The notes under the pieces are model-generated. The model worked only from the letters and a program-made list of their open reading frames with translations. It had not been told where the DNA came from and did no database searches. From positions 1 through 64,000 of the forward strand of contig JAJTBZ010000023.1 in assembly GCA_021286645.1 (NCBI GenBank): a DNA stretch of 64,000 bases, written 5' to 3'. This DNA is from Ignavibacteria bacterium (GTDB lineage: Bacteria; Bacteroidota; Ignavibacteria; Ignavibacteriales; Ignavibacteriaceae). Positions 38,868 to 63,098 of this stretch are shown piece after piece (position 1 is the first letter of the stretch; each line of letters starts with the position of its first letter). A program made the translations under genes and the position numbers.

Positions 38868-39179
38868 TTATTGTGTAACTTCCTGGAGTGTTCCTTTTTT
38901 GAATTGTGGCATATTAACTACCCATGCATTCGTTTGAACCTGTCGAGCCTCATTGTTTTTTACTAAATGCTCCAGAAAATCTTTTGTAAGAGACTCACAA
39001 TCAGTATAACCAATCTTTTGGCCTTTGAGTTCCAGAAAAGCTGAAATTGTAAATTGAAGATCCCTGAAAAAAATATTCGAATTATGATATAATGGCAGCT
39101 TTGACTTAAAGAAATTCAACAGACTGCTTTTTTCAGCCAGTAAAGATTCCTTAACTAAATTATAGTTCTCTTGTTTCAT
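38868..39179 (-). CDS. Unknown 103-aa protein in the Fe-S operon
   Basis: Small soluble protein, no signal peptide or membrane segment, one Cys (GYTDCESL). It begins with a charged helix (KQENYNLVKESLLAEKSSLLNFF) and seems largely helical. No family recognised. It lies five bases after the cysteine desulfurase and 12 before the Fe-S carrier gene, so it is translated with them. A role as an adaptor or regulator of the desulfurase is possible but has no direct support. Confidence 0.7.
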   Translation of the reverse strand: MKQENYNLVKESLLAEKSSLLNFFKSKLPLYHNSNIFFRDLQFTISAFLELKGQKIGYTDCESLTKDFLEHLVKNNEARQVQTNAWVVNMPQFKKGTLQEVTQ

Positions 39180-40424: not shown

Positions 40425-41183
40425 TTGAAAGCATATAAATATATATTTAAAAGACAGGAATTCTGGCAGGAGGAACTGACGGAATTTCACGAATCAATAT
40501 TGCGCGATGCCGAATTAGATGAATTTACCGGTGGCGACCTCTACATTATATTAGAGGAATTGATTAGCAACTATTTCAAGTATTCGGTGCAGCCAAAATA
40601 TAAATTTGGTATCGAGGTGCGCATCGATATACTTACTGAAACTATAGAGATCATTCTTGAATACGAGGGGGATGATTTTAATCCGTTTAATTATCATCCG
40701 GTTCTGTACGAAACTGATGTTGAGAATGCATCAATCGGGGGTAAGGGTATTCAAATGGTGAAGAAACTGGCTGAAACATTCTTTTATGCCAGGGAAAATT
40801 ACAAAATTAAACTACATATCGTGAAAAACCGTATTATGGAGACTGAAATGACCTTTACCGAAAGAATTGAAGGAAACGTCCTGATTCTTTCTCTAGACGG
40901 GCGCTTAGACATCATGTCATGCGACTCGCTGCAGAAAAAATTTGATGAAATAATCGATATTCAAAAGCAAAATTTAATTCTTGTCGATTGTGAAAAGTTA
41001 TCGTTTATTAGCTCGGCAGGCCTTCGTTTGTTTATGATTGCCTTGAAGAAGTTAAACAAAATTAATGGCAAAATAGCCTTTTGCGCATTCAATATGAATA
41101 ATAGAAAGATTTTCGATATTACCGGATACGATAAGTTCTTCAGTATTTACGATAGTATTCAGGAAGCATTGGAAGCTTTTTAG
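40425..41183 (+). CDS. Fusion of RsbW-like ATPase domain and STAS (RsbV-like) domain
   Basis: 252 aa, TTG start. Residues about 1-140 are a GHKL ATPase domain of the anti-sigma kinase (RsbW/HATPase_c_2) type: N box EELISNYFKYS with Asn49, G2 box GGKGIQMVKKL. The G1 box reads EYEGDDFNPF, so the Asp usual in D-x-G (ATP adenine contact) appears to be Tyr80. Residues about 143-252 are a STAS domain (LILSLDGRLDIMSCDSL, LVDCEKLSFISSAGLR); Ser197 aligns with the phosphorylated Ser of SpoIIAA. A kinase and its usual antagonist in one chain suggests an intramolecular switch. No sigma factor is adjacent. Divergent from nifS. Confidence 0.82.
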   Translation: MKAYKYIFKRQEFWQEELTEFHESILRDAELDEFTGGDLYIILEELISNYFKYSVQPKYKFGIEVRIDILTETIEIILEYEGDDFNPFNYHPVLYETDVENASIGGKGIQMVKKLAETFFYARENYKIKLHIVKNRIMETEMTFTERIEGNVLILSLDGRLDIMSCDSLQKKFDEIIDIQKQNLILVDCEKLSFISSAGLRLFMIALKKLNKINGKIAFCAFNMNNRKIFDITGYDKFFSIYDSIQEALEAF

Positions 41184-41191
41184 GAATTATT

Positions 41192-41227
41192 ACCCGGGAG
41201 TAAAACGATAAATATTTACTTCCGGGT
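41192..41227 (+). terminator. Long hairpin without T-run
   Basis: ACCCGGGAGTAAA (41192-41204) pairs with TTTACTTCCGGGT (41215-41227) over 13 bases with one G-T pair. It lacks a T-run, but a second hairpin with one follows. Confidence 0.5.
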
Positions 41228-41246
41228 GCCCTAACCATTCCAGATT

Positions 41247-62531: not shown

Positions 62532-63098
62532 TTATGAAATGAGCCTTCTTCCCTGTGCGTATTTATGCAATTTACTGTAGAGCATCTTTCTGGCACGGTG
62601 CAATCGAGACCGAACAGTTCCTACCGGGCAATTAACAAATTCAGCAATCTCTTCATAGGTAAATCCCTCGATATCAGAAAGAATGATTACCGTTCGAAAA
62701 TCCTCTGGTAATGCAGCAATTGCACCGGAAAGTTCGTCATCAAGAAGGTTATCAAATATTTCTTTCTCTAAGTGCGCATCCTCGGTGTATGAAGGTTTAA
62801 CATTTTCATAAAAGTTTTCGATTTCTTCATAGTCAACTACAAGGGGACCGCTAGCTTTTTTCTTATATGAGTTTATGTATAGATTTTTCATAATTCTATA
62901 CAACCATGCCTTACAATTTGTGCCCTTCTCAAACTTATCAAAAAACCGGAAAGCGCGTAGAAATGTCTCCTGAACTAAATCATTCGCATCATCTTCATCA
63001 CCGGTTAACTTGAATGCGAAATTAAATAGGCTATCCATGTGGGGAATAGCTTCTCTTTCAAATTCAAGGTGTAAATTATTTTTGTTTGTATCAGGCAT
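62532..63098 (-). CDS. ECF-type RNA polymerase sigma factor
   Basis: 188 aa with region 2 (FNFAFKLTGDEDDANDLVQETFLRAFRFFDKF...CKAWLYRIMKNLYINSYKK, residues about 18-80) and region 4 (ALPEDFRTVIILSDIEGFTYEEIAEFVNCPVGTVRSRLHRAR, about 125-170). The sequence fits the group close to RpoE/SigW. No anti-sigma or zinc-finger gene lies next to it in the visible direction; the minus-strand gene upstream is a carboxypeptidase. Which genes it controls is unknown. Confidence 0.93.
   Translation of the reverse strand: MPDTNKNNLHLEFEREAIPHMDSLFNFAFKLTGDEDDANDLVQETFLRAFRFFDKFEKGTNCKAWLYRIMKNLYINSYKKKASGPLVVDYEEIENFYENVKPSYTEDAHLEKEIFDNLLDDELSGAIAALPEDFRTVIILSDIEGFTYEEIAEFVNCPVGTVRSRLHRARKMLYSKLHKYAQGRRLIS

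Follow-up and report, generated by a model that had tools for sequence, protein, structure and literature searches.

A remodelled kinase-like domain fused to a STAS antagonist: a putative partner-switching variant in a few uncultured Ignavibacteriales bacteria

Introduction

Partner switching normally runs on ATP, which the kinase spends in resetting its antagonist. In a 64,000-nucleotide stretch of contig JAJTBZ010000023.1 from an Ignavibacteria bacterium (hereafter the window), a single frame tethers a kinase-like domain of the RsbW/SpoIIAB type to a STAS antagonist, and its ATP pocket appears to be conserved in a rebuilt form, which raises the question of whether a switch of this kind can run on binding alone. 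Comparison with its relatives identifies it, at the level of sequence, as a real, lineage-restricted partner-switching variant, in which some members are fused and the ATP site is consistently remodelled. For most readers this will be a modest variation on a well-known theme, and single chains uniting kinase and STAS parts are already known in Rv1364c and in CapK/VapK. The view taken in the initial annotation that the two domains are normally separate partners stands for most of the cases considered here and fails for these known chains. The occurrence of fused and unfused orthologues in neighbouring genera offers a small natural comparison between tethered and free partners.

Domain architecture and predicted fold

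That one chain holds both a HATPase kinase domain and a STAS domain, as first proposed from the letters of the frame, is borne out by Pfam searches with the 252-residue protein, in which these were the only families matched, with neither PAS nor PP2C among them (Table 1). The STAS match has an E-value of 1.9e-17, and the NCBIfam model TIGR00377 for STAS anti-sigma antagonists scores 71.3 bits, above its curated cut-off of 53.45. The HATPase_c_2 match (E 8.2e-6, 26.3 bits) falls just below the cut-off of 27.4, which the same frame passes with 27.9 bits in the search of its own genome; matches of the first half to NCBIfam RsbW models are weak, the RsbW equivalog NF003144 giving 17 bits against a curated cut-off of 145. 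AlphaFold predictions for the full-length protein and for residues 1-138 alone are of middling confidence (pLDDT 69.6 and 70.4, respectively), and both are poor across the stretch from the G1 box to the lid. Set against solved structures, the modelled STAS half matches SpoIIAA (1th8_B, Z 16.9, rmsd 2.0, 112 residues aligned), and the best match of the modelled kinase half is the RsbW domain of Rv1364c (3ke6_B, Z 9.5, rmsd 3.2, 105 aligned), followed by SpoIIAB (1tid_A, Z 8.4), UsfX and RsbW. The ten best rows for the kinase half are all of the RsbW/SpoIIAB/UsfX type, with Z running from 9.5 down to 7.3, four of them at least 8 and those below 8 weak if taken alone. Sequence matches agree with these models in predicting that the kinase half has the Bergerat-type HATPase_c_2 fold.

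Table 1. Features of the fused gene and its flank (window coordinates)
Feature	Position	Strand	Details
Fused gene	40425..41183	+	252 aa, TTG start; fused orthologue L031:7553-8305 at 54% identity
HATPase_c_2 (RsbW/SpoIIAB-type) domain	40476..40802	+	Pfam, residues 18-126; structure comparison
N-box Glu45..Asn49, kept	40557..40571	+	Alignment with relatives
Tyr50, beside N-box Asn, group-only	40572..40574	+	3/3 testable orthologues, 0/57 others
Tyr80 replacing G1-box Asp	40662..40664	+	4/4 orthologues; others D 56, H 1 of 57
G2 box GGKG (105-108), Lys107 group-only	40737..40748	+	K in 3/3 testable orthologues, 0/57 others (5 are gaps)
Short linker, residues 135-141	40827..40847	+	No gap against G013; residues 131-145 27% identical
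GGAG, Shine-Dalgarno-like, 6 nt before internal ATG	40838..40841	+	Hybrid energy -6.4 kcal/mol
In-frame internal ATG (Met142), start of STAS part	40848..40850	+	Position of stand-alone STAS start codons
STAS domain	40866..41168	+	Pfam, residues 148-248; NCBIfam; structure comparison
Ser197, predicted phospho-acceptor position	41013..41015	+	Ser in 63/63 distinct STAS relatives
14-bp stem-loop past stop codon, without T-run	41191..41228	+	-19.7 kcal/mol, z -4.48

Distribution and origin of the fusion

A frameshift or assembly artefact as the source of the fusion is countered by the second fused orthologue, in genome G013, which aligns with the window protein without a gap through the linker. 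Among the matches listed for 164 genomes of the order, two genomes have an unbroken fused frame, namely the window's own (G000) and G013, with up to 16 candidates scored per genome. In a phylum sample of 395 genomes at E <= 1e-16, such a frame was listed in one, again the window's own, with up to six candidates scored per genome and G013 absent from the genomes shown; more divergent fusions could escape both searches. A widespread fusion is ruled against by these counts. When the kinase half was searched in a class sample at E <= 1e-10, 14 of 391 genomes matched, and a score over 54 bits was reached by G000 and G013 alone. A scan of genome contigs gave two loci, apparently on the contigs G013:C82 and G001:C19. 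The latter genome belongs to the window's genus and has the window's neighbourhood with the cysteine desulfurase-like gene divergent, an assignment made by eye for G001.

Twenty regions of relatives comprise 12 with neighbouring HATPase and STAS genes, one fused (G013), one cut within the kinase half (G001), one where the STAS gene adjoins a gene for a long protein ending in a HATPase domain, and five in which only a STAS frame was matched. G064, from the genus of G013, has an unfused orthologue, whose kinase-half frame stops two bases before the STAS ATG with GGAGG ahead of it. Close homologues lacking the STAS part, which by the initial annotation would refute its reading, are thus in part a reality, and since the genes are separate in G064 and in 12 of the 20 regions, fusion into one chain is not essential. 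In a tree of 20 STAS sequences, the window, two copies from G013 and G064 group together (91/91, under the tool's support mark), and unfused G064 adjoins the two G013 copies (100/98), so that the fusion arose either twice or once with one split. Judged by these comparisons, the fusion is minor and labile, a variant of two genes that lie side by side, and the fused switch seems to belong to a few uncultured Ignavibacteriales bacteria. We propose that a stop codon was lost between adjacent, probably co-translated RsbW-like and STAS genes within a small lineage of this order. G013 also carries a second, free STAS gene just past its fusion (L031:8389-8742), which is probably a duplicate, as the tree puts it beside the fused STAS (94/81).

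The ATP site of the kinase half

With the residue numbering confirmed for Tyr80, Ser196 and Ser197, an alignment of 15 sequences places Tyr80 in the column of the G1 Asp, and a profile built from it matches this column to the Asp in SpoIIAB's DEG motif, just as the initial annotation had supposed. Of 61 distinct segments condensed from 111 matched rows, 56 have Asp here, four have Tyr and one has His. Tyr is confined to the orthologue group, whose four members (the window, G013, G001 and G064) come from two genera, two of the four being truncated where a contig ends; the relatives behind these counts come from 146 loci, chosen for resembling the window protein or for a family match in its own genome, and are not a random sample. 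Tyr80 is thus lineage-specific. No other Asp is conserved in its stead: the neighbouring positions 83-84 read DD, VP, DD and EP across the four orthologues, on which ground D83/D84 are rejected for the G1 role. Glu79 and Glu81 are Glu in all four and may have a role at the G1 site. Separately, a HATPase_c_2 gene of G003 (L033:2985-4086), followed by two STAS genes, has His at the G1 Asp position, a second departure from this Asp.

In Hsp90-type pockets the residue following the N-box Asn adjoins the G1 Asp, and by that geometry Tyr50 and Tyr80 together would fill the adenine side of the pocket. The other side is retained: Glu45, Asn49 and the G2 glycines are kept in the orthologues where these can be tested, which counts against a dead site, as such a site need not keep them; together with the group-only Tyr50 and Lys107 this suggests remodelling rather than decay. 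It is highly improbable, on our estimate, that a decaying kinase domain is simply carried along with a working STAS domain. Such decay would account for the loss of the G1 Asp, for the replacement of the G1 Gly by Ala in two of the four orthologues (G013 and G064), and for Pfam scores near the cut-off; against it, the frames are open, the group-only residues are common to two genera, and the kinase halves of the window and G013, 47% identical over 131 codons, differ chiefly at third codon positions (0.41/0.27/0.67 at the three positions).

The same residues bear on the main rival, an active self-contained switch whose kinase half still uses ATP, with Tyr80 either tolerated or bonding the base through its hydroxyl, and transfers phosphate to Ser197 in the same chain or in a second copy. 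The retained N-box and G2 residues and the fusion of the partners speak for it, as does the precedent of Rv1364c, a PAS-PP2C-RsbW-STAS chain of Mycobacterium tuberculosis described, in the available parts of PMC10950880 and PMC9138534, as phosphorylating its own STAS Ser600. The G1 Asp, which in GHKL proteins typically bonds the adenine amino group (PMC10017428, from the portion available), is nonetheless retained in 56 of 57 other relatives, and the change of the G1 Gly in G013 and G064 removes a further element of this box, so that we hold the active switch to be unlikely, if worth serious consideration. With the adenine side rebuilt, ordinary ATP-dependent phosphorylation has probably been lost or strongly altered, and a binding module that no longer phosphorylates, as the initial annotation offered among its readings, is plausible.

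The STAS half and its internal start

Ser197, taken at the outset as the phosphorylatable residue, is invariant among the STAS relatives (63 distinct from 130 rows of the same non-random 146-locus source) and is the predicted phosphorylation site. The further claim that an Asp normally precedes it proved mistaken: the preceding residue is Ser in 48, Asn in 12 and Asp in 3 of the 63, and Ser196 is consequently ordinary rather than an anomaly. Two stand-alone STAS proteins, in G007 (L032:7036-8207) and G032 (L036:7344-8599), are 53 and 54% identical to the window's STAS half, and their genes abut a gene in the same direction, encoding a VanY-type D,D-carboxypeptidase in G007 (Pfam) and a similar protein, by eye, in G032.

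Both fused genes have an ATG with a Shine-Dalgarno-like site at the start of the STAS part, of equal strength in the two and with the hybrid ending 5 and 4 nt upstream, although the linker amino acids around it differ between them. A comparable site (-4.9 to -9.3, taking the better of the possible starts) precedes the STAS gene in all 14 adjacent unfused HATPase-STAS pairs, being that of the second ATG, five codons in, in G033 and G008. Free STAS may hence also be made, and its production through internal initiation is plausible on this pattern; the site may equally be a relic. These energies assume the standard anti-Shine-Dalgarno sequence, as neither a 16S pattern nor the Rfam SSU model found a 16S gene in the window's own assembly.

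Carried further, the conserved start would make the gene chiefly an ordinary two-protein switch in one frame, in which the internal ATG yields most of the STAS as free protein and the fused chain arose incidentally when the stop codon was lost; the unfused orthologue of G064 fits this too. Several controls temper it. Of 1584 internal in-frame ATGs in ORFs of at least 250 aa, 83 reach -6.4 (11 of 291 within the window), so that the site may reflect chance or descent from a separate gene. The outer TTG, at -3.3 against a median of -3.1 for 37 window gene starts, is about average and not marked as poor (at their first start, 8 of these 37 long window ORFs reach -5 or better), and the second, separate STAS gene of G013 hardly has a site at all (-1.2), from which it follows that a strong one is not needed. 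In view of these points and of the assumed anti-Shine-Dalgarno sequence, we regard the two-protein reading as improbable. Among the matches listed in the literature search, no title concerned internal initiation in a STAS/anti-sigma gene of this kind.

A speculative combination of these features would have the adenine pocket rebuilt around Tyr50, Tyr80 and Lys107 for another ligand, with the phosphate side kept, turning the kinase half into a sensor for something other than ATP that holds or releases the tethered STAS, while the gene yields both fusion and free STAS from the conserved internal start and their ratio sets the switch; we consider this a long shot.

A proposed binding switch and its known counterparts

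The explanation that we favour, at a probability of roughly 45%, is a binding switch with an impaired or altered kinase site in which Ser197 is controlled in trans. The kinase-like half would keep its fold and the Mg/phosphate side of its pocket (Glu45, Asn49, GG.G) and serve in binding. Its adenine side would be rebuilt, with Tyr80 occupying the position of the G1 Asp and Tyr50 beside the N-box Asn, so that ATP binding would be impaired and ordinary ATP-dependent phosphorylation probably abolished or much changed. The STAS half would be switched at Ser197 through phosphorylation by the cell's other kinases and dephosphorylation by PP2C phosphatases, and its state would set what it binds: the kinase-like domain tethered to it, a neighbouring one, or some further partner. 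Free STAS from the internal start may come in addition. The observations underlying this scheme are the fusion itself, the residues and their conservation, the paired genes of the relatives and the retained sequence resembling a ribosome site. It draws support from the constrained kinase half, the relatives with paired genes and the presence of other candidate kinases, SpoIIE-type PP2C matches and STAS matches in the same genome. Against it stand the small base of four orthologues, two of which a contig end truncates, the middling models, and the VanS proteins, which have Asn at G1 and still bind ATP weakly, Asn not being settled as the cause of the weakness (PMC10017428, from the portion available). 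VanS likewise has a GHKL domain off the G1 consensus and works as a kinase, but is a sensor histidine kinase, and Asn, unlike Tyr, is isosteric with Asp.

Rv1364c resembles the window protein in that a kinase-like domain precedes STAS within a single chain, and differs in its additional PAS and PP2C domains, both missing from the window protein. The title of one paper on Rv1364c speaks of 'Loss of kinase activity'. The SpoIIAB/SpoIIAA and RsbW/RsbV pairs share the two folds, the N-box and the phospho-Ser with the window protein, but are pairs of proteins with the G1 Asp present, in contrast to a fused chain that carries Tyr80 and has no known partner among sigma factors. STAS and GHKL domains are also united in CapK (HTH-STAS-GHKL) and its relative VapK (STAS and GHKL), single chains which their authors liken to anti-sigma kinases and which have a separate STAS substrate, with STAS N-terminal to GHKL, the reverse of the order here (available text of PMC13373217). 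Mycobacterium smegmatis RsbW3, which acts through a heterodimer with RsbW1 and is not itself the anti-sigma factor, gives a precedent for an RsbW homologue acting by binding, though the accessible text of PMC10950880 mentions no STAS half for it. Titles and abstract openings, covering few subscription papers, named no protein made up of HATPase_c_2 and STAS domains in which the G1 box is altered; a search joining Ignavibacteri* with STAS and anti-sigma returned nothing, and the STAS-only review PMC8256260 uses none of the terms 'fused', 'fusion', 'kinase domain' and 'pseudokinase'.

Genomic context

The fused gene appears to stand alone, with a divergent aminotransferase-V (cysteine desulfurase-like) gene upstream and a NUDIX gene 225 bp downstream. 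A terminator scan gave no terminator-like site after it, and the 6 sites of a promoter scan compare with 6.7 in shuffled sequence. Elsewhere in the window, a 103-aa frame at 38868-39179 is flanked by the aminotransferase-V gene and, by eye, an IscA-like gene; no Pfam family matches it at E 0.001.

A sigma partner beside the fused gene was sought and set aside, as no sigma gene is adjacent; in agreement with the initial annotation, the only sigma factor in the window is the ECF gene at 62532-63098, one of 11 Sigma70_r2 matches in the genome. One of these frames is of 296 aa, which we take by its size to be probably the primary sigma, and the others are of 83-210 aa, the 83-aa frame perhaps being incomplete. 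By size, no SigB/SigF-sized frame occurs among the 11 matches to this one family, which makes 'anti-sigma' a putative label for the output. Potential partners in trans include the other candidate kinases, which are two clear HATPase_c_2 proteins of canonical type (C75:8738-9115 and C71:10986-11354), along with 13 SpoIIE-type PP2C matches and eight STAS matches, the window's own among them. One stretch of this genome, C75:4458-13819 (G000 coordinates), clusters a canonical HATPase_c_2 gene with a STAS gene and three matches to SpoIIE-type phosphatases; an ECF-sized sigma factor lies about 3.5 kb from this cluster, which is possibly an ECF-linked partner switch.
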